DNA of 13,453 bases, from positions 1 through 13,453 of the forward strand of contig JALVOR010000212.1 of the NCBI GenBank assembly GCA_027026295.1. Direction: 5' to 3'. Below the pieces are notes generated by a model. That model made no database searches, was not told the origin of the DNA, and saw nothing but the letters and a program-made list of their open reading frames with translations. This document shows positions 3,438 through 13,453 of the stretch, in pieces. Positions within the stretch are counted from its first letter, which is position 1, and each line of letters opens with the position of its first letter. A program made the translations under genes and the position numbers. The stretch is from Anaerolineales bacterium (GTDB taxonomy: Bacteria; Chloroflexota; Anaerolineae; Anaerolineales; DRMV01).

Positions 3438-6400
3438 ATGTCTGAAAAGGCGCGATTTCTGGAACAATTGCGGCGTGTTGGGCGGTTGACGAAGGCCAAA
3501 TGGGCTGCCTGGGTAACGCCCGATGATGGCGGCTGGGTGTGGCATATCGCCTGGGGAATGACAGCCCGTTGCAAGCGTGTGCTGCGGCACTGTTGTGAGC
3601 AGCAGCGTTGGAAAGCGTGGCTGAGTGGGGCGCTGGCAAGCGGGCGCTGGCGAAGCCGCAAGGCGCCAATTGACGAGGCTGAAATTGTGGGGAAACGTTT
3701 GTACGCTTTCCCCGTGCCTGAATTGCGCGGCGTGCTGCTGGTGGGGGGAGACCCGCTGGACGAGGTTGCACGACAGATGTGGCGCACTGTGGCGTTGGGA
3801 GCGCCTTCGGCGACGCAATCACAGACAACTGGCCACCCTCCTGCTTCGTTGTCGTTTTGCGCTGAATTCATCGAGCAGTTGGGCGCGGCAGCACAGCGTC
3901 CTGATGCGATGGCCGGGGTCGTTGTGGAGCGCATAGAGCAGGTTGTTCCTTGTGAGCGCGCTTATCTGGCGGTGCCGGAAGGTGATACCTGGTCGGTGCT
4001 GGCTGCGCGGGGAGAGAACGCTGAGGTTTTGCGGGGGCGGCGTTTGCGCGTAAGCGAAGCACCTGCCCTGAGGCGATTGTTGCAGAAAGAAAGCGTGGTG
4101 TTCTCCGGTGCCGCATGGCCGGGCGTTCCTGTGCCTTCGCCGTGGGCAGAGGCGGTAGTGCCGTTGATGTACCGCAAACGTTTGATTGGTGTGCTCGCTG
4201 TGGGGCGCAGGCAGCCTGAGTTTTCTGCTGACGAAATTGAGCGCTTGGAGCGCATCGCCCGACGGACGGGATGGTTGTTCGAAAATGCCTTTGCCTTCGA
4301 AGAGGTGCGGGAGCACCTGCGTCGCAAGGCTGTGGTGAACGATGTTTTCCTGTCGGTGCTTTCCAGTAAAACGGTTGAAGAGGCAGCAGCCAATGCGACC
4401 CGTTATTTACGGCGGGTGATGCAGGCCGACGCGGTGATTGTACTGCTGCCCGATGAACGTGGCGGCTCTCTCAGGGTGGTAGGTGCTTCGCCGCCCAGTT
4501 TCAATCGCACGATGCTTCTCAGGGAAAACAGCATTTGCGGGCAAGTATTCAAAACGGGGAAGCCCGCGCGCTACGGTGATGTAAGCAAGGCGCCGCATTA
4601 TTTCCCGATAGAAGGACTGGATACCCGCTCGGAACTGTGTGTGCCGATGCGCTCGCGGCGCGGGGTTGTGGGTGTGGTGAACCTGGAAAGCCACTTGCCG
4701 AATGCGTTTGACGAGGAAGACGAGCGGTTGTTGGCCGGCGTTGCCGGGCAACTGGCCTTGCTGCTGGAAACCGTGCGGTTGCGTCACCAGATTGCCACTC
4801 AGGCGCGGCGCATGGAAGTGGTGCACCGGGTAGTGCAGGATATCGTGGGGCTGCTGGATGAGGAGAAAATTGTTTCCCTCACTGCCCAACGCCTGGCCGA
4901 TTATTTTGGTTTCGAAGTGACGGTTGTGGCGTTGTATGAGGACGAGGGAACAGGCGCTGATTCGGAAGACGCTTCACACCATCGCCTTTTGTCTCACTGG
5001 GCAGCCGGCTCAGGCGTGAAAGATTGCGCCGCCGCGCTCGATTTTCCCTGCCCGCCTCCGGCAGACTCTGGGGTGGCAGGCTACGTCCTCCGCACGGGAA
5101 AGAGCGCGCTCATCAACGACACTTCGAAAGACGAGCGCTACATTCCGTTTCCCGGCTTCGATGCGCATTCCGAACTGTGCGTACCTGTTTTTTCTCACGA
5201 AAAACCCGATTTGGCGGTGGGCATCATCAACATCGAGAGCAGCAAAGCCAATGCCTTTACCGAAGAAGACCGCCTGGCGTTGGAGTCGGTAGCGGGGATG
5301 CTCTCGGCAGTTTTAGGCAATGCTCGCCGTTACCGGCGTTTGAACGTGACGGCGCAGCACCTGAATGCGGCAAGAGAGACTTCTCTGGATATCATTGCCG
5401 ACCTCGAAATGAAAACTTTGCTGCAACGGGTGGTGCGGCGCGTGCGCTTGCTGCTGGATGTGCGGGGTGCCGAAATAGGTTTGCTGGAAGGCGACCGGGT
5501 GCGTGTGGTTGCCACGGAAAATCCGTGGCAAGACTACACCGGCTACACTTTCCCTCTTGGCAAGGGCGTTTCGGGGCGGGTGGCCGCCACAGGCGAGATC
5601 GAGGTGGTGAGCGATTATGCTGTGTGGGAGGGACGCAACCCCGAGAATCCGTTGCCGTCTTTCCGCGTCGTGGCTGGTGTTCCGTTGATTTTTCACGACG
5701 AGACGGTAGGGGTGTTGACGATTTATGATGACCGTGAAGGGCGGCAATTCAGCGAAGATGAAATGGCATTGCTCAAACTGCTGGCGCCGCAGATTGCGAT
5801 TGCCATCCGCAATGCTTTGTTGTATCAGGAACTGGGCGAACGTATCAAGGCCCAGGCTGCGGCGGAAAGGAAACTGGTTCAATCTGAACGGCTGGCGGCA
5901 GTGGGCGAAATGGCCGCTGCTGTGGCGCACGAACTCAACAGTCCGTTGACGACAGTGATGGGCTTTGTCGAACTGGCATTGGAAGAATTGGCGCCTCAGA
6001 GTGAGATATACAAGGATTTGCACCTGGTGTTGCAGGAAGCCCAGCGGGCACGCGACATCGTGCGCCGTCTGCTGGATTTTGCCCGCCGTAGTGAGCCCCT
6101 GCGAATTGCAACCGATATCAACGAACTGGTGAAAGATACGGTAGATCTTGTTCAGCATATGGTGGCTTCCAAGGGAATCGTGCTGGATGTGGAACTCGAC
6201 GAAGCCTTGCCACTGGTGCAGGTTGACCGCACTGAAATAAAACAGGTTTTCCTCAACCTTGTGCATAATGCGTTGAATTTTATGGAATCAGGAGGGCACT
6301 TGCGTATTGCCACGCGCAGGGAGGATGATGAATTTGGCCAGTGGGTGGTGACCGATGTCTCTGATACTGGTGTGGGGATGACGCCAGAACAGCAGATGCG

Positions 6401-6569
6401 CATTTTTGAACCTTTCTTTACGACGCGACAAGGCGGTGCAGGGATGGGGCTGGCTGTAAGTTATAGTATTGTCAGAAACCACGGCGGCGACATTCGAGTT
6501 AGCAGCCAGGTGGGGAAGGGAAGCACTTTTTCAGTGTATCTGCCGATGTTTCTTTACGAGGAACACTGA
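3438..6569 (+). CDS. Multi-GAF cytoplasmic sensor histidine kinase
   Basis: The 1043-residue protein has no membrane segment or signal peptide, so it senses inside the cell. Residues 1-140 form a divergent module whose end (RLYAFPVPELRGVLLVGG) resembles the last strands of a GAF domain. Four GAF domains follow at about 150-290, 305-450, 465-635 and 645-795. GAF2 and GAF3 share GK-A...D-SK...Y-P, SELCVP (C401, C581), a V-NLES/I-NIES strand and NAF-EED, and look like an internal duplication. A short coiled coil leads to a HisKA domain with phospho-acceptor H831 (VAHELNSPL). The ATPase domain has an N-box around N940 (NLVHNALNF), a G1 box DTGVGM (from D976), an F-box FEPFFTT and a G2 box GAGMGLAVS. 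The GGGAGG site 6 nt before ATG 3438 fixes the start. It is the first gene of a three-gene operon. Its ligand and partner are not evident; the downstream regulators are the natural phosphate acceptors. Confidence 0.93.
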   Translation: MSEKARFLEQLRRVGRLTKAKWAAWVTPDDGGWVWHIAWGMTARCKRVLRHCCEQQRWKAWLSGALASGRWRSRKAPIDEAEIVGKRLYAFPVPELRGVLLVGGDPLDEVARQMWRTVALGAPSATQSQTTGHPPASLSFCAEFIEQLGAAAQRPDAMAGVVVERIEQVVPCERAYLAVPEGDTWSVLAARGENAEVLRGRRLRVSEAPALRRLLQKESVVFSGAAWPGVPVPSPWAEAVVPLMYRKRLIGVLAVGRRQPEFSADEIERLERIARRTGWLFENAFAFEEVREHLRRKAVVNDVFLSVLSSKTVEEAAANATRYLRRVMQADAVIVLLPDERGGSLRVVGASPPSFNRTMLLRENSICGQVFKTGKPARYGDVSKAPHYFPIEGLDTRSELCVPMRSRRGVVGVVNLESHLPNAFDEEDERLLAGVAGQLALLLETVRLRHQIATQARRMEVVHRVVQDIVGLLDEEKIVSLTAQRLADYFGFEVTVVALYEDEGTGADSEDASHHRLLSHWAAGSGVKDCAAALDFPCPPPADSGVAGYVLRTGKSALINDTSKDERYIPFPGFDAHSELCVPVFSHEKPDLAVGIINIESSKANAFTEEDRLALESVAGMLSAVLGNARRYRRLNVTAQHLNAARETSLDIIADLEMKTLLQRVVRRVRLLLDVRGAEIGLLEGDRVRVVATENPWQDYTGYTFPLGKGVSGRVAATGEIEVVSDYAVWEGRNPENPLPSFRVVAGVPLIFHDETVGVLTIYDDREGRQFSEDEMALLKLLAPQIAIAIRNALLYQELGERIKAQAAAERKLVQSERLAAVGEMAAAVAHELNSPLTTVMGFVELALEELAPQSEIYKDLHLVLQEAQRARDIVRRLLDFARRSEPLRIATDINELVKDTVDLVQHMVASKGIVLDVELDEALPLVQVDRTEIKQVFLNLVHNALNFMESGGHLRIATRREDDEFGQWVVTDVSDTGVGMTPEQQMRIFEPFFTTRQGGAGMGLAVSYSIVRNHGGDIRVSSQVGKGSTFSVYLPMFLYEEH

Positions 6570-6574
6570 AATTC

Positions 6575-6581
6575 GAGGTGA
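6575..6581 (+). promoter_or_regulatory. Ribosome-binding site deciding the hybrid kinase start
   Basis: GAGGTGA is a 7-base match to the anti-Shine-Dalgarno complement and lies 8 nt before ATG 6590. The in-frame GTG at 6578 sits inside this site and has no suitable site of its own, so ATG 6590 is preferred. Confidence 0.65.
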
Positions 6582-6589
6582 CAAATACG

Positions 6590-8218
6590 ATGGTATCGCA
6601 GAAATCCCCGCGAGTGGTTGTGGTTGATGATGAAGAAGGCGTTTTGAGGCTGTGCCGACGTGTGCTGGAACGCGCCGGTTTTGAAGTGCAAACCTTTCAC
6701 CGCCCTTATCTTGCTCTCGACTACTTTCAGGAACACGAGGTTGATGTGCTGGTCGTTGATACCCGCATGCCGGAAATGAACGGTTTTGTACTGATGAAGC
6801 AGGCGCGCTTGCATCAGCCTAACCTGGCGGTGGTGATGATGACCGGCTTTGCTTCGCTGGATATGGCGCTCGAGGCGTTGAATGCCGGCGCGGATGGTTT
6901 GCTGCTGAAGCCCTTTGAGAAGACCGAAGACTTGGTGGAGAAAGTGTGGCAAGGGTTGAGTAACCGCCGCAGCCAGGAAGAAAACGCCCGCATTGCCGCA
7001 TTGCGCCCGCTGTTTGAGGTGACGGAAGCGCTGTTGAGTGAAACTTACCTTGCGCCTTTGCAGCAGATGATTGTGGAAAAAGTGAGTGAATTTGTGCCGA
7101 GCATCGCGGTGGGGCTGTATCAATGGGATTTTGACGGAAATGAAGGCGCACTATTGGCGGCGATAGGCGAAGTTCCCGCCCCTGACGAGTTGTTCACTGA
7201 AGGGTGTAGCACTTTTGACCGCCCCTGGGTGGTGCATGTCAACAGCCCGGACCCGGAGATGGAAAATCGCCGGAAATTGCTCCGTCGCTATGGGTGGTAC
7301 AGTCTGCTGGTTGCACCGGTGGAGCGGGGGCAGCGCCGTTACGCCATTCTGGTGGCACGGGAACAATTGCCTCTGTTTCACCCCGAAGTGGATACAGCCG
7401 CGTTGGGCATTTTGGCGCGAATTTCAGCAGCAGCGTTGGAAAATGCCCGCCTGTATGAAGCACTGCGGGAATCGCTGGAGAAATTGAAACGCTCGCAACA
7501 GGCCCTGGCGCTGGCTGAAAAGATGGCCGCCATCGGGCGGCTGACTGCTTCTTTGGCCCATGAGGTCAACAACCCCATTCAGGCGGTGCGCAACAGCCTT
7601 TACCTGGCAGCGCACCCTGATGTGGACGAGGAGCGGCGTCAGAAATATTTGCAGAGCGCCCGTCAGGAAATCAAGCGCCTTTCGGTGTTGGTGCACCAAA
7701 TGCTGAATTTTTACCGCCCTGGCAACGTGGAGCGGCAATTTGTTCGCTTCAAACTGCTGATTAATCGGGTGGTCGACCTTTTGCAGCCGCAACTTACCGA
7801 CCAGCAAATCGAAGTCGAGGTGGATATTCCCGACGATTTGCCCCCCGTGGTGGGCGTAGAAGACCAGTTGCAGCAGGTCGTGTTGAATCTGGTGCTCAAT
7901 GCGATGGAAGCCATGCTGATGGGCGGCAGACTTTATTTGCTCGCCTGGGCTGAAGAGGACCATGTGATTTTGGCGGTAGAAGATACCGGCCCCGGCGTTC
8001 CTCAGCACTTGCGAGAGCGAATTTTCGAGCCGCTGATCAGTACCAAAGAAGAAGGCACCGGTTTGGGGCTGGCGGTGAGTTACAATATCCTTGTTGCCCA
8101 CACGGGTGAATTGCGATTGGCTGCACCGCGGCGCGGCAGTGGAGCGGCTTTCCAGATGGTGTTGCCCGTCGCCGAAAATGGTGAGGTCGTCGTAAAACAA
8201 GAGCCTGAGGAGGGATGA
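6590..8218 (+). CDS. Hybrid kinase: receiver-GAF-histidine kinase
   Basis: The 542-residue soluble protein begins with a receiver domain (about 6-120). It has the acidic pair DDE, phospho-acceptor D57 (VVDTRMPEMNG), MMTG, and the conserved Lys in LLKPF. A divergent GAF domain follows (about 135-290). A coiled-coil stretch leads to HisKA with H324 (LAHEVNNPI). The ATPase has LNLVLNAMEAM, DTGPGV, FEPLIST and GTGLGLAVS. The layout, receiver first and kinase last, lets another kinase control this one; the four-GAF kinase 20 bp upstream is the obvious candidate. Its own output would go to the response regulator whose start overlaps or abuts this stop. The ATG at 6590 is chosen over the GTG at 6578 because GAGGTGA is positioned to serve the ATG. 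No motif residue appears lost, so I expect kinase activity. The stimulus is unknown. Confidence 0.92.
   Translation: MVSQKSPRVVVVDDEEGVLRLCRRVLERAGFEVQTFHRPYLALDYFQEHEVDVLVVDTRMPEMNGFVLMKQARLHQPNLAVVMMTGFASLDMALEALNAGADGLLLKPFEKTEDLVEKVWQGLSNRRSQEENARIAALRPLFEVTEALLSETYLAPLQQMIVEKVSEFVPSIAVGLYQWDFDGNEGALLAAIGEVPAPDELFTEGCSTFDRPWVVHVNSPDPEMENRRKLLRRYGWYSLLVAPVERGQRRYAILVAREQLPLFHPEVDTAALGILARISAAALENARLYEALRESLEKLKRSQQALALAEKMAAIGRLTASLAHEVNNPIQAVRNSLYLAAHPDVDEERRQKYLQSARQEIKRLSVLVHQMLNFYRPGNVERQFVRFKLLINRVVDLLQPQLTDQQIEVEVDIPDDLPPVVGVEDQLQQVVLNLVLNAMEAMLMGGRLYLLAWAEEDHVILAVEDTGPGVPQHLRERIFEPLISTKEEGTGLGLAVSYNILVAHTGELRLAAPRRGSGAAFQMVLPVAENGEVVVKQEPEEG
8207..8214 (+). promoter_or_regulatory. 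Ribosome-binding site before a triple ATG
   Basis: GAGGAGGG lies inside the end of the hybrid kinase gene and precedes ATGATGATG (8215, 8218, 8221, all in one frame). The AGGAGG core is 1, 4 and 7 nt from these three codons, so 8221 has the usual spacing. The upstream stop TGA (8216-8218) overlaps the first ATG, so translational coupling is likely. Confidence 0.6.
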
Positions 8219-8220
8219 TG

Positions 8221-9033
8221 ATGGTTGTGGGTAAAGTGTTGGTTGTGGACGATGAACTTGTTCCCCGCATGTCGCTGACCGATATTCTGCAGTTGGAAGG
8301 TTACGAAGTTGACGCTGTGCCCAATGGCGCGCTGGCATTGCAACGTTTGGAAGAGAGGGACTATGACGTTCTGTTGCTGGATTTAATTATGCCAGGTATC
8401 AGTGGGCTGGAAGTGCTGGCCGAGATAGACAAAACCTCGAAAGACGTCGAAATCATCCTTTTGACGGCGCACAGTTCGGTGGAATCGGCGATCGCGGCGC
8501 TGCGGCATGGTGCGGTAGATTATTTGATGAAACCAGCCAAGCCGGAGGAAATCGTTCAGGCAGTTGGAAAAGCCGTCCAGCGGCGGCAGCGGCGGCTGCG
8601 CCATCAGCAGGTGCTGCAGCAACTGGAACGCTCGGTGCAGCAACTGAAGGAAGAGGGGCTCGTTGACGCGACGAACACAACGGATGCGGAAGAATCCTTG
8701 TCCTCCCGGGAGCGCGTATATTTGCCAGGTGGCGTGTTGTTTGATGTGGAACGGCGGCGACTGTATTATGAAGACCAGAACGTAGTGCTTTCTCCTGCGG
8801 AGGCGCGTCTGTTGCAGACCCTGGTGCAGCATAAAGGGGAAGTGTTGAGCCACCGGGATTTGGTGCGTTGGGTGCAAGGCTATGAAGTAGCCGAATGGGA
8901 AGCGCCGGGCATGCTGCGCCCCTTGATGAGCCGCCTGCGCGCTAAACTGGACCCATTGCCGGGAGGGCGCGAGTGGATAGCCAATGTGCGCGGTGTAGGA
9001 TACGTCTTTGAGGAGGAAGAGGGCGAAACGTAA
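8221..9033 (+). CDS. OmpR-type response regulator
   Basis: The 270-residue protein is the likely output of the operon. An N-terminal receiver (about 3-115) shows DDE, phospho-acceptor D54 (LLLDLIMPG), LLTAHSS and the Lys of LMKPA. A long charged and Gln-rich helical linker (about 118-150, QRRQRRLRHQQ and onward) may form a coiled coil. The C-terminal winged helix (about 165-268) matches the OmpR/PhoB class: LSPAEARLLQTL, then the recognition region ending in LMSRLRAKL, then NVRGVGYVFE. The linker is longer than in typical OmpR proteins. The receiver, with SSVESAIAALRHGAVDYLMKP, looks more like those of NtrC-type regulators, so the protein may be a domain recombination. Its targets are unknown; the divergent promoter region at 3287-3437 is a reasonable autoregulatory candidate. 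Start 8221 is chosen by ribosome-site spacing; 8215 and 8218 would add one or two Met residues. Confidence 0.92.
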   Translation: MVVGKVLVVDDELVPRMSLTDILQLEGYEVDAVPNGALALQRLEERDYDVLLLDLIMPGISGLEVLAEIDKTSKDVEIILLTAHSSVESAIAALRHGAVDYLMKPAKPEEIVQAVGKAVQRRQRRLRHQQVLQQLERSVQQLKEEGLVDATNTTDAEESLSSRERVYLPGGVLFDVERRRLYYEDQNVVLSPAEARLLQTLVQHKGEVLSHRDLVRWVQGYEVAEWEAPGMLRPLMSRLRAKLDPLPGGREWIANVRGVGYVFEEEEGET

Positions 9034-9132: not shown

Positions 9133-10068
9133 TTAGTGGCCGGGAAGCCCTCGCGGCCTTAGCCAACTGAGCCATCCTCCCTGGGTGGGCAAGGGGCGGG
9201 AAGGTGGTGGGGCTTTGTCTATGCCTGAAAGCAGCAGGATGATAGCCAGCAACAATGCGCCGCCCCACTGCAAAAGGGAAAGGCTTTCGTGTAGCCATAC
9301 ATTGGAAAGCCCCAGGGTGACCAGCAATTCGCTTAGGCCGAGCAAAGCGGTTTGCATACCGCCAATGTGCTTGACCCCCAAAAAGAGCGTGATGCGGGAA
9401 AAGAACGTGACCAGCGTCAGCCCCAGCACAGGCCAGGCTGTGTTCATGGTGGTAGGCAGCCGGACGGGGCCGATGAGCAGGAACGCGGGCACCACCACCG
9501 CGCTCATTGCCGTCAGGGTGTAAAGGGTGACAGTGGGGGCAGGAACATCGAAAAGCACGCGCTGGTTGACGGGCAGGTGCAGGGCATAGAGGGCCGCTGA
9601 AAGCAGCATCATGCCCATACCGAGTGGGTCGAGATGGTGCGTGCCCCCCATGGTGAGCAGTGCTACCGCGGGAATTGCTAACACCAGCCGCAGCAAAGTG
9701 AGTTTGCTGGGTGGCTGTTTGTCCATCCACAACCAGAGTGCGACGAAGAGGGGATAAAACGAATAGAGCAGTTGCCCAATGCCGGCGTCAATTCTGCCGA
9801 GGGCGCTGTAATAGAACAGCGAACCGATGCCGTTGATGGCCCCTGCCAGCAGACAACCGACCAGACCGAGGGGGTAAATGTGAAGGAAGGGGCGTTTGAA
9901 AGCGGCAATCAGCACGAACAGCAGCAAGGCTGCTAATATGGTGCGCAATGCTACCACTGCCAGCGGAGGCAGGCCGTTGAGGATGGCTTGTTTCCCGAAA
10001 ATGGGTGCCATGCCCAGAAAAAGAGCCGAGAGTACCGCTGAGCGGACGCCTTTCCAGTGCCGTTGCAT
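9133..10068 (-). CDS. EamA/DMT-superfamily transporter
   Basis: The protein (311 residues) is an integral membrane protein with about ten hydrophobic helices in two homologous halves, the EamA (drug/metabolite transporter, 10-TMS) pattern. The first half starts with AVLSALFLGMAPIFGKQAI. The second starts near GMGMMLLSAALYALHLPVNQ. Typical half-ending segments are GIGSLFYYSAL and the GLSELLVTLGLSNVWLHE type loop before the last helices. The family exports or imports small metabolites, including amino acids in RhtA/YdcZ-like members; the substrate cannot be read from sequence. It is the last gene of the minus-strand set, downstream of the PLP enzyme but separated from it by a repeat element, so cotranscription is uncertain. 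I start at ATG 10068 because AAAGG lies 5 nt upstream. An in-frame ATG at 10089 (seven extra residues) has no clear ribosome site but cannot be excluded. The extreme C-terminus is Pro/Gly/Trp-rich and probably unstructured. Confidence 0.88.
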   Translation of the reverse strand: MQRHWKGVRSAVLSALFLGMAPIFGKQAILNGLPPLAVVALRTILAALLLFVLIAAFKRPFLHIYPLGLVGCLLAGAINGIGSLFYYSALGRIDAGIGQLLYSFYPLFVALWLWMDKQPPSKLTLLRLVLAIPAVALLTMGGTHHLDPLGMGMMLLSAALYALHLPVNQRVLFDVPAPTVTLYTLTAMSAVVVPAFLLIGPVRLPTTMNTAWPVLGLTLVTFFSRITLFLGVKHIGGMQTALLGLSELLVTLGLSNVWLHESLSLLQWGGALLLAIILLLSGIDKAPPPSRPLPTQGGWLSWLRPRGLPGH

Positions 10069-10098
10069 AATGACCTTTGTCTGTGACATTCCCGGCTA

Positions 10099-10262: not shown

Positions 10263-11939
10263 TTACCCCAACAGCGCCCGAATTTCATCCAGCAATTCGT
10301 CGGTGAGGAACTCGCCCTTGGGCATGAGTTTTTCGATTTGCCCGCTGAGACGCCGCCTTTCTTGAGGCGTAAGCGTTTTTGCCGTGACGGCAATGATGGG
10401 AATGTGCGCCGTTGTCGGGTCGGAACGCAGTGTTTCGATGACTTGAAAGCCATCGGTTTCCGGCATCATCAGGTCGAGCAAGATGAGGTCGGGTCGCTCT
10501 TTCCGCGCCAGTTCGATGGCCTCGGCACCGTTGGCGGCTTCCGAAATGGTGAACTCACCTAACGATTGCAGCACGCGGCGCAACAGAATGCGAGCGGGTT
10601 CGTGGTCGTCGACAATGGCAATATGGGGCACTTCGTGAGAGGCGAGGTTTTCCAGCGCGGTGCTCAGGCCATCGGTGGGGGCTTCTCTGTCTTTTTGAGT
10701 AAGGTGTTTTGGGAAATCAATGTTGCGCACCCAGCGGTTGCCGAGGATGTGCGACTCGATGGGCATGGTGTGCCCGGTGCCGTTGATGACGATGAGATCA
10801 TCGGGCTTGAGCACGCCCGCGCGCGCCAGATTGATGACGCCCGCAATGGCAACGGCGGTGGCCGGTTCCACCGAAAGACCTTCCATTTTTGCCAGAATGT
10901 GCATCGCCCGGAAGGCTTCTTCGTCGCTTACGCTGGTGATGGTGCCACCGTGGGCTTTCATGCTGTCGAAGAGCATGGAATACACCCGCCCGGGGTCGCC
11001 TGTGGCGAGGGTGGCGATGTGGGTGCGGGGCAATTGCACAGGCGTGGCCACCCGCTGCCCTTGCTGCCAGGCTCGCGCCATGGGCGCGCAACCTTCGCTC
11101 TGCACCAGCAACATTTTGGGCGGGCGAGCAACGAAGCCCATTTCTTGCAGTTCGCTGTAGGCTTTGTAAACCCCCAAAGGCCCCAGCGCGCCGCTGACCG
11201 ATTGCACAAACCAGTCAGGCGTTCGCCACGGGAAGCCGGTGCCCGGCGCACCTATACGCTCGGTCAACTGCTCGCTGATTTCGTAGGCCAGGGTTTTCAT
11301 GGATTCTACGGTGGGGAGGGAACGGGCGCCCTTGTCCAGATACAGCCCGCGTTGCCGAGCGAACTCGGCGGCAACGTGCTTGGTCTGGTCGTAGGTGCCG
11401 GTAACCTTGATGACCTGCGCACCGTAGATGGCAACTTCGCGCGTTTTTTCTGCGGGCACTGAACTGGCGAGGAAGGCCCACAATTTGATGCCGGCGCGGG
11501 CGGTATAGGCTGCGTAGGCAATGGCGACGTTGCCGGTAGAGGCCACTACCATCTCGGTGAGGCCGGCTTCTTTGAGCACGGCAATGGTTACGGCAGCCTG
11601 GCGGTCTTTGAAAGATGAAGTGGGGTTTTGCCGCTCGTCTTTGAAATAAATGTGCGGCATTTTGAGCATCATGCCCAGACGCTCGAGATGCAGCAACGGC
11701 GTGCCGCCTTCGCCCATGGAGATATCGGGGTGCGCCGACGCCACAGGGAGCAGTTCGTGATAGCGCCACAGGTTGAAAGCGCGCCTCGGCAAAACCGCCG
11801 GCAGGGTGGTGGCCAGTTCTTCGTAGTTGTAAAGTGCCGTCAGCCACTCGCTGTTGCACTGTTCGCATTGCGTGTGAAGCGGGTCGAAGGACTGTGTGTG
11901 GCCACAATCCAGGCATTGCACGGTGATCGGTTTTGTCAT
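10263..11939 (-). CDS. Threonine-synthase-like PLP enzyme fused to a receiver domain
   Basis: The 558-residue protein joins two complete modules. Residues 1-30 form a zinc ribbon (C9, C12, C25, C28), as in many threonine synthases. Residues about 70-425 are a fold-type II PLP enzyme: GEGGTPLL, NPTSSFKDR with Schiff-base Lys K111, phosphate loop ASTGN, and NGTGH near the end. Residues about 440-558 are a receiver domain with D444/D445, phospho-acceptor D489 (LLLDLMMPE), T519 and K541. The 30- and 52-residue spacings from D489 equal those of CheY, so the receiver looks functional. Family threonine synthases convert O-phosphohomoserine to threonine and are not normally joined to receivers. Several core motifs deviate (NPTS for NPTG, GNVAIA for GNTSAS), so the substrate may differ. 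The gene is 47 bp downstream of a hybrid kinase on the same strand, probably cotranscribed. The ribosome site is weak (GGA). The reading frame is continuous through a linker at 425-440. Confidence 0.92.
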   Translation of the reverse strand: MTKPITVQCLDCGHTQSFDPLHTQCEQCNSEWLTALYNYEELATTLPAVLPRRAFNLWRYHELLPVASAHPDISMGEGGTPLLHLERLGMMLKMPHIYFKDERQNPTSSFKDRQAAVTIAVLKEAGLTEMVVASTGNVAIAYAAYTARAGIKLWAFLASSVPAEKTREVAIYGAQVIKVTGTYDQTKHVAAEFARQRGLYLDKGARSLPTVESMKTLAYEISEQLTERIGAPGTGFPWRTPDWFVQSVSGALGPLGVYKAYSELQEMGFVARPPKMLLVQSEGCAPMARAWQQGQRVATPVQLPRTHIATLATGDPGRVYSMLFDSMKAHGGTITSVSDEEAFRAMHILAKMEGLSVEPATAVAIAGVINLARAGVLKPDDLIVINGTGHTMPIESHILGNRWVRNIDFPKHLTQKDREAPTDGLSTALENLASHEVPHIAIVDDHEPARILLRRVLQSLGEFTISEAANGAEAIELARKERPDLILLDLMMPETDGFQVIETLRSDPTTAHIPIIAVTAKTLTPQERRRLSGQIEKLMPKGEFLTDELLDEIRALLG

Positions 11940-11986: not shown

Positions 11987-13453
11987 TTATTCAGCCTGTG
12001 GGTTTTCGTCGTTTTTGGTTTCTGCAGGCTTTGTCATGCGCTGGAGTAGTTTTTGAAGTTGTTGCAGCAGGGCTTCGGTGCCCAGCGCGCCTTTGTGTAG
12101 CAGCCCCTGAGAGGCGGCCCGCAGGCGGGCGCGCTCGGCGGGCGAGAGGTCGGCTGCGGTGAAAATGATGACGGGTATGTCTTGCCATTCGGGGGTGCTG
12201 CGGATTTCTTCCAGCACGGTGAACCCGTCCAGTTCGGGGAGGAGCAGGTCGAGGATGATGGCGTCGGGGCGCTGTTCGCGGATGCGTTGGAGGGCTTCTT
12301 CGCCGTTGACTGCCGTGCGGGTGGCGAATGCACCAATTTCGTCCAGCAGCCGGGCAATGAGGTAGCGGTCGGAGTCGTCGTCTTCTACGATGAGGATGTC
12401 TTCGACTTCTCCATCGGGGTCGACGTGTTGCAGCGCCCGCAGCAGGTCTTCTTCACGAATGGGTTTGGTGATGTACTCGGCGGCGCCCAGGCTGAAGCCC
12501 TTTTCTTTTTCTTCGAGGATGCTGGAGATGATAATGGGAATTTCGCGAGTTTCCGGATGCTGTTTCAGATCTTGCAGCACCTGCCAGCCATCGCGTCCGG
12601 GCATCATGATATCCAGGAGGATGGCGACGGGTTTGATCTCGCGGGCTCGCGCGACGGCCCTGTTGGGGTTGGTGAGCGGCACGACGCGGTATCCCATGGG
12701 GGTCAGGTAGCGCTGATAGAGGTGAATCACATCGGTGTCGTCGTCCACTGCGAGGATGATGCGTTCGTTTTCGTCAGCCGCGTGTTGTGATGGCTGGATG
12801 ATGGGGAGCGTGAAGTAGAAAGTGGAGCCTTTGCCCAATTCGGATTCTACCCAGATGCGCCCGCCGTGCATTTCGATCAGGTTGCGGGAGATGGAAAGCC
12901 CCAGCCCCGTGCCGCCGGTCTTGCGGGTGGGGGAGGCGTCGACCTGCGAGAAGGGTTTGAAGAGTTTTTCCTGGTCTTCGGGGGCAATGCCGGGGCCGGT
13001 ATCTTCCACACCAATGAGGATTTCCGGCAGGCCGTGGGGGCCTTTTTCCCTGCGGGCGAAGATTTTGATGTGCCCTTCTCCGGTGAATTTGGCGGCGTTG
13101 GAAACCAGGTTGAGCAACACCTGCCGCACACGAATGGGGTCGGCGTGGATGATGGGCAGATCGGGATCGACTTCCGTGATGAGTTCGACGGCTTTGCCTT
13201 TGACCAGCCCGCTGGCGGTGGAAAGCACGCTGTTGATGAGGTCGGTGAGGTGCACTTCCTCGAAGGCGAGTTCCATCTTGCCTGCCTCGATTTTGGAGAG
13301 GTCGAGGATGTCGTTAATCAGGCCGAGGAGGTGCTGACCAGCGTTGTAAATGGCGGTGAGGTCTTGCTGTTGCAGGTCGGTGATGGGGCCGTCGATGCCT
13401 TTGAGGATGACCCGTGAGAAACCGATGATGGAATTGAGCGGCGTGCGGAGTTC
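11987..13453 (-). CDS. Hybrid histidine kinase with two C-terminal receivers (5' truncated)
   Basis: The gene runs off the right edge of the window; 488 residues are present. Reading begins at [12 protein letters not shown], so the phospho-acceptor His of HELRTPL lies one codon outside. The rest of HisKA (to about residue 60 of the fragment, ending [14 protein letters not shown]) is followed by the ATPase domain with [24 protein letters not shown] and [10 protein letters not shown]. Receiver 1 has phospho-acceptor D281 ([11 protein letters not shown]) and Lys in ITKPI. Receiver 2 has D402 ([11 protein letters not shown]) and Lys in LLHKGA. The C-terminal tail is polar. An ATG at 13276 is internal to HisKA and is not the start. 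The sensory part is upstream and unseen. This kinase probably phosphorylates its own receivers, and possibly the receiver fused to the PLP enzyme encoded 47 bp downstream. Confidence 0.93.

Follow-up and report, generated by a model that had tools for sequence, protein, structure and literature searches.

A conserved fusion of a threonine synthase-fold enzyme with a receiver domain in Chloroflexota, and its possible control by an adjacent histidine kinase

Why does an enzyme with the fold of threonine synthase carry the receiver domain of a two-component system, and what might that domain do there? The question is raised by a gene in a 13,453-nucleotide stretch of DNA (the window, meaning the whole stretch that was analysed) from an Anaerolineales bacterium of the phylum Chloroflexota (assembly GCA_027026295.1, contig JALVOR010000212.1), in which an earlier note had read a pyridoxal phosphate (PLP) enzyme running in frame into a receiver. 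The gene lies on the minus strand at 10263-11939, with an ATG that ends at 11939 and a TAA stop codon at 10263-10265. It is a single open reading frame (ORF) encoding 558 amino acids (aa) with no internal stop, and both its PALP and its Response_reg domain exceed the Pfam cut-offs (Table 1), so the in-frame fusion is as claimed. The residues named in that reading, namely C9, C12, C25 and C28 of the zinc-ribbon-like motif, the predicted Schiff-base lysine K111, and D444, D445, D489, T519 and K541 of the receiver, are likewise all found at their positions. Taking the protein together with its relatives and neighbours, we lean towards the view that it is a response regulator with a small-molecule enzyme as its output; it would then act as a phospho-switch that works in a single step on a specialised enzyme of the amino-acid type.

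Conservation and distribution of the fusion

When 5.8 billion proteins were searched twice, with the window protein and with a distant relative as queries, the architecture that the earlier note had proposed to look for in protein databases was recovered: PF00291 and PF00072 were both present in all of the best 120 matches listed for each query (240/240). Because all of these listed best matches carry both domains, the fusion is neither a chance event nor an artefact of assembly or of a frameshift, and it is confirmed as real.

The predicted sites of both modules are preserved as well. In an alignment of the window protein with its 120 listed best homologues, K111, D445, D489, T519 and K541 were invariant (121/121), and position 444 was D in 119 sequences and E in 2. 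A further set comprised 108 loci, made up of the best 80 of 460 relatives from a scan of genome contigs (the close loci) and 28 loci hand-picked as divergent or odd; it holds at least one duplicate, since L118 is identical in sequence to L028. Among the 107 fused proteins read directly from these other loci (80 close and 27 divergent), the four cysteines, K111, D445, D489 and K541 were kept throughout, position 519 was T in 94 and S in 13, and position 444 was D in 91 and E in 16. The receiver signature claimed earlier, consisting of an acidic pair, a phospho-acceptor Asp, a Thr/Ser and a Lys, is therefore intact in both alignments.

A tree was built from 74 enzyme domains, drawing on roughly one in four of the 80 close loci; three of the 20 fetched paralogues (L124, L130 and L141) were left out because their reading frames did not come out clean. 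In this tree, the enzyme domains of the fused proteins formed one branch with a value of 100 in the Shimodaira-Hasegawa approximate likelihood ratio test (SH-aLRT). The sole row labelled 'unfused' inside this clade, L108, is truncated by its contig end. Among the sequences sampled, the fused group has a single-clade origin, apart from the sampled unfused paralogues; the mutual order of the groups in this tree is unsure because the branches between them are long, and a rare unfused family member is possible because few unfused rows were sampled. Two candidates for such members, from G417 and G470 (38-39% identity), were rejected, as they score like PRK08197-type enzymes (L109, 613.6 bits).

A genome-by-genome search, which covered Chloroflexota, found a family member in 33 of 120 genomes drawn from the class (E < 1e-100). 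These members are 48-61% identical (the window itself aside), compared with at most 38% for the other matches listed from the 120 genomes, and 32 of the 33 member genomes also hold one or more paralogues that are more distant (E <= 1e-15), the exception being G096, which is 81% complete. Across 400 genomes of the phylum there were 44 matches at E <= 1e-68, or 42 once the two unfused PRK08197-type enzymes mentioned above are subtracted, and members also occurred in a lineage outside the class (G150 to G384). One protein (L112, from G223) is 96% identical to a Herpetosiphon giganteus protein named threonine synthase. The close loci that carry names are all from Chloroflexota, including the cultured Bellilinea caldifistulae, Ornatilinea apprima, Thermanaerothrix daxensis and Longilinea arvoryzae; the names shown among the best 120 matches of each protein search, which stand on a minority of those matches, also all belong to this phylum. 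The fusion family is conserved across much of Anaerolineae, in several families of this one class, and is present in Herpetosiphon.

The adjacent histidine kinase and its receivers

In the window, a hybrid kinase gene stops 47 bp ahead of the start of the fusion gene, and it had been taken for the natural partner of the enzyme. This pairing proved to be conserved: in 100 of the 108 loci, a histidine kinase core on the same strand ends no more than 1.3 kb before the enzyme domain, frequently with a gap of less than 50 bp between the two genes, and the pairing survives in rearranged neighbourhoods (L095-L108 and L111-L116). No upstream kinase was present in the remaining eight loci, four of which (L013, L027, L044 and L066) are cut by their contig ends within 700 bp. 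With HK denoting the histidine kinase core, the architecture of the 100 adjacent kinases is HK-REC-REC in 69, HK-REC in 19 and HK in 12, and the H-box reads HELRTP in 97. Several GAF or PAS domains are present in all five full-length kinases scanned, and a separate histidine phosphotransfer (HPt) domain was found in none of these five. A kinase-enzyme single polypeptide was considered at G096 and G037, where open frames of 1784 and 1157 aa occur, and was rejected on domain scans, which assigned the kinase to a separate, overlapping ORF.

The receiver of the enzyme finds its best match in its own genome in the last receiver of the neighbouring kinase (43% identity, 90.8 bits), the next match scoring 61.6 bits. 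In trees built from about every third of the 80 close loci, with receivers shorter than 80 aa left out, the enzyme receivers and the kinase terminal receivers shared one branch side, with a support of 0.907 in FastTree (135 receivers) and an SH-aLRT value of 75 in IQ-TREE (117 receivers, with groups limited in size). These results hint at a duplication from one gene to the other. The site is preserved in the terminal kinase receivers, with D in 68 of 70, K in 69 of 70 and T/S in 69 of 70. The first receiver of the window kinase, at 12431-12757 on the minus strand, has a Ser where most of its relatives have a Cys.

Identity of the enzyme and the proposed switch

The earlier note had described the enzyme as threonine-synthase-like and amino-acid biosynthetic, and only the first half of this description, the fold, is supported. 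The threonine synthase fold and the PLP lysine are present, and the closest solved folds of the enzyme domain are those of threonine synthases and of CapA2 (9k3c, annotated as a cysteate synthase); all matches to solved structures concern the enzyme domain and none the receiver. However, the enzyme scores below every NCBIfam equivalog cut-off, missing PRK08197 (265.4 bits against 303), TIGR00260 (145.0 against 167.1) and the other threonine synthase models, as well as the cysteate synthase model TIGR03844 (124.6 against 324.9), whereas two other genes of its own genome do pass threonine synthase cut-offs (C101 with 589 bits against 303, and C260 with 174.2 against 167.1). Its substrate-site motif is also unlike that of most unfused paralogues, in a comparison that covered 21 of the 25 truly unfused rows. 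Of the six phosphate ligands of the T. thermophilus threonine synthase, which we take to be K61, T88, N154, S155, R160 and N188, only K61 is matched; the others correspond to V138, D202, K203, T210 and G250, of which D202 is D in 97 and G250 is G in all of the 107 other fused proteins. Because the cut-offs are missed, the substrate motif is altered and the genome holds two better candidates, 'threonine synthase' is probably the wrong name for the fusion enzyme. The same evidence makes it unlikely that we are dealing with an ordinary, regulated second threonine synthase, through which the kinase would directly tune the synthesis of threonine (or a vitamin B12-independent aspartate-family synthesis); the five differing ligands are indecisive alone, since C260 itself differs at some of these positions and lacks T88- and R160-like residues, but the missed cut-offs and the two genes that pass them stand against this alternative too.

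For the phospho-switch towards which we lean, we infer the phosphotransfer, its relay and its catalytic effect as follows. The adjacent GAF/PAS sensor kinase would autophosphorylate on its H-box histidine, and the phosphoryl group would pass to D489 in the C-terminal receiver of the enzyme; this transfer would probably be direct, because none of the five scanned kinases has an HPt domain and the receiver is directly attached. Activation of the receiver may then be relayed through the linker between the domains. In an AlphaFold model of the fusion protein, with a predicted template modelling score (pTM) of 0.72, the predicted local distance difference test score (pLDDT) of this linker is below 50 at residues 409-422 and 432-435, and its GLxxAL segment is conserved in the 107 other fused proteins (G424 in 105, L425 in 102, A428 in 99 and L429 in 104). 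Such a relay would alter the order of the enzyme or its dimer contacts, and thereby its rate. The enzyme itself would have branched off from the threonine synthase fold and specialised on an amino-acid-type substrate of its own. In plants, S-adenosylmethionine activates threonine synthase allosterically, and the structure 2c2b is, by its title, a complex of the two; this activation indicates that the fold can be switched.

A further element of the gene row is an EamA homologue, which lies directly downstream of the fusion gene in 77 of the 80 close loci. Two of the exceptions, L021 and L048, end 4 and 96 bp past the gene, and L029, where a different gene lies on the other strand, is the sole true absence. 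EamA is also found near 10 of the 28 divergent loci, on the same strand in 7 and on the opposite strand in 3. In the main branch, EamA may carry the product or the substrate across the membrane. A second branch, 50-53% identical and including L089-L094, L096, L098, L105, L111, L112, L115 and L116, has receiverless kinases and free receiver genes, is without EamA, and sometimes has two receivers on the enzyme. We offer, as a tentative and rather doubtful extension, that the kinase, the phospho-switched PLP synthase and the exporter might form a unit that makes and secretes an amino-acid-like compound, possibly a cell-cell signal, without a transcription step, and that in the other branch the extra receivers might replace the exporter, with the product acting inside the cell.

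Two further alternatives concern the role of the receiver. It may be a structural or oligomerisation module that switches nothing. There is a precedent in the extended decarboxylases of basic amino acids, PLP enzymes whose REC-derived 'wing' sits at the N-terminus and is required for assembly (PMC8503589). However, a purely structural domain should lose both its acidic, Thr/Ser and Lys site residues, which are kept in 107/107 fused proteins (444 as D or E), and its neighbouring kinase, which is retained in 100 of 108 loci, and we regard this alternative as quite improbable. Least probable in our judgement is a reverse flow, in which the PLP domain acts as a sensor, for an amino acid or for its own turnover, and thereby governs how kinase and receiver are phosphorylated: the gene sits amid several kinases, receivers and a DNA-binding regulator, free receivers beside the enzyme at some loci could serve as the output, and PLP domains do act as sensors in MocR-type regulators, but the catalytic residues are fully conserved and the main branch has a transporter, not signalling genes alone. 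Both directions, from the kinase to the enzyme and from the enzyme to the kinase network, could coexist.

Several observations weigh against the phospho-switch in the form proposed here. In 72 of 89 cases, the first receiver of the kinase carries a Cys in place of the Thr/Ser, which could make part of the relay atypical. True absences of the upstream kinase are seen at L091, L092, L099 and L117; at L099, a REC-HK gene lies immediately downstream of the enzyme gene, and our locus scan found no nearby kinase at L091, L092 and L117. The 12 adjacent kinases without a receiver, together with the extra free receivers at some loci, mean that the wiring varies between loci, and the absence of EamA near 18 of the 28 divergent loci means that export is no universal part of the system. 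Finally, the common origin of the two kinds of receiver is weakly supported (75 of 100, with few columns and long branches), so that a gene-to-gene duplication is suggestive and not proven.

Comparison with known systems and neighbouring genes

Response regulators with an enzymatic output, such as CheB and PleD, are known. The premise of the earlier note, that receivers normally control DNA-binding or cyclic-nucleotide output, was too narrow, as receivers on metabolic enzymes have been described already in parts of PMC5847659 and PMC8503589: section 14 of the former presents them on standard metabolic enzymes as a rare, narrow-spread trend in bacteria and archaea, and the latter describes one group of PLP decarboxylases that carries a REC-derived domain. 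The PALP-receiver fusion is an unusually widespread case of this known, rare kind. We found no description of a threonine synthase- or PALP-receiver fusion in our searches of the open-licence literature, and an earlier mention is possible.

Like the enzymatic-output response regulators covered by that part of PMC5847659, the fusion joins a receiver to an enzyme, so that chemistry could be controlled without transcription; unlike them, its output is a fold-type-II PLP enzyme, paired with a kinase and found in several families and in the Herpetosiphon lineage. With the extended aspartate aminotransferase (AAT)-fold Arg/Orn/Lys decarboxylases it shares the combination of a PLP amino-acid enzyme and a receiver-derived domain, but these enzymes, in the passages of PMC8503589 devoted to them, are of fold type I and have an N-terminal REC-derived domain with a role in assembly, whereas the fusion has a PALP domain, a C-terminal REC, an intact phospho-acceptor site and an adjacent kinase. 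The CqsA-CqsS and LqsA-LqsS-LqsR systems (PMC3376566) likewise have the gene of a PLP synthase next to that of a (hybrid) histidine kinase, and in some cases a receiver protein as well; in those systems, the synthase is aminotransferase-related, the receiver is unfused and the kinase senses the product, whereas here a PALP domain and its receiver are fused. Threonine synthase (PRK08197, TIGR00260) resembles the fusion in its fold and in the PLP lysine of the SFKDR motif, and the zinc-ribbon-like N-terminus is as in the fusion's own paralogues, but the fusion lies below all cut-offs, has an altered substrate loop and phosphate-loop sequence (SGxxGP) and has a receiver added. The fusion is also far below the cut-off of cysteate synthase (TIGR03844; 9k3c), a family that to our knowledge carries no receiver.

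If phosphorylation sets the rate of the enzyme, the pair would be a case of a kinase directly controlling an amino-acid-type PLP enzyme; in Chloroflexota, a chemical reaction would be switched directly instead of genes, and a tractable system would be at hand for receiver switching of a non-nucleotide enzyme. A widespread annotation would also be corrected, as records of the family are often named threonine synthase, and the system would point to a metabolite linked to how these bacteria, otherwise hard to study, sense their environment.

Table 1. Features of the window in and around the fusion gene (positions in the window; residues are those of the fusion protein)
Feature	Position	Strand	Remarks
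Multi-GAF histidine kinase	3438..6569	+	Partial homologues (~35% identity, half length) in 20/51 long loci
REC-(GAF)-HisKA-HATPase kinase	6578..8218	+	GAF match below cut-off; homologues in 31/51 long loci
Convergent response regulator, REC + Trans_reg_C	8215..9033	+	Homologues convergent in 32/51 long loci
EamA (drug/metabolite transporter (DMT) superfamily) transporter, downstream	9133..10089	-	318 aa; PF00892, 83 bits against a cut-off of 28
PALP-REC fusion gene	10263..11939	-	558 aa
Receiver domain, residues 440-541	10317..10622	-	Pfam PF00072 (Response_reg), 74.9 bits against a cut-off of 30.2
D489 codon in receiver	10473-10475	-	
Inter-domain linker, residues 396-439	10623..10754	-	Mostly variable; low pLDDT
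Conserved GLxxAL segment within linker, residues 424-429	10653-10670	-	Conservation
PALP fold-type-II PLP enzyme domain, residues 73-388	10776..11723	-	Pfam PF00291, 228.3 bits against a cut-off of 35
K111 codon, predicted Schiff-base lysine	11607..11609	-	Aligns with SFKDR lysine of threonine synthases
CxxC...CxxC zinc-ribbon-like motif, N-terminal, residues 9-28	11856..11915	-	Zinc binding predicted from the four Cys
Upstream hybrid histidine kinase, HisKA-HATPase-REC-REC	11987..13453	-	5' end cut by contig end; H-box His outside

Among the 51 long close loci, for which the counts are of similarity clusters and hence lower bounds, EamA is present in at least 47 and the kinase in at least 43. 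The convergent trio at 3438-9033 on the plus strand, made up of a GAF kinase, a REC-kinase and a REC-winged-helix regulator, stands opposite the enzyme row in many relatives. Directly ahead of the kinase, at least 36 of these 51 loci encode a ParA/MinD-type ATPase (PF13614, PF01656; for example, L028:3104-3886); in the window, this region falls beyond the contig end. Further upstream, a membrane-type Cache-HAMP-GAF protein without a kinase domain occurs in at least 37 of the 51 (for example, L028:162-3107). In the second branch, an unfused PALP enzyme of the PRK08197-like clade stands beside the fused gene at L090:5011-6543, L093:4367-5578 and L116:3803-5029, and at L115:3307-4353, near a fusion gene of the same branch, a REC is fused to a guanylate/adenylate cyclase domain (PF00211).
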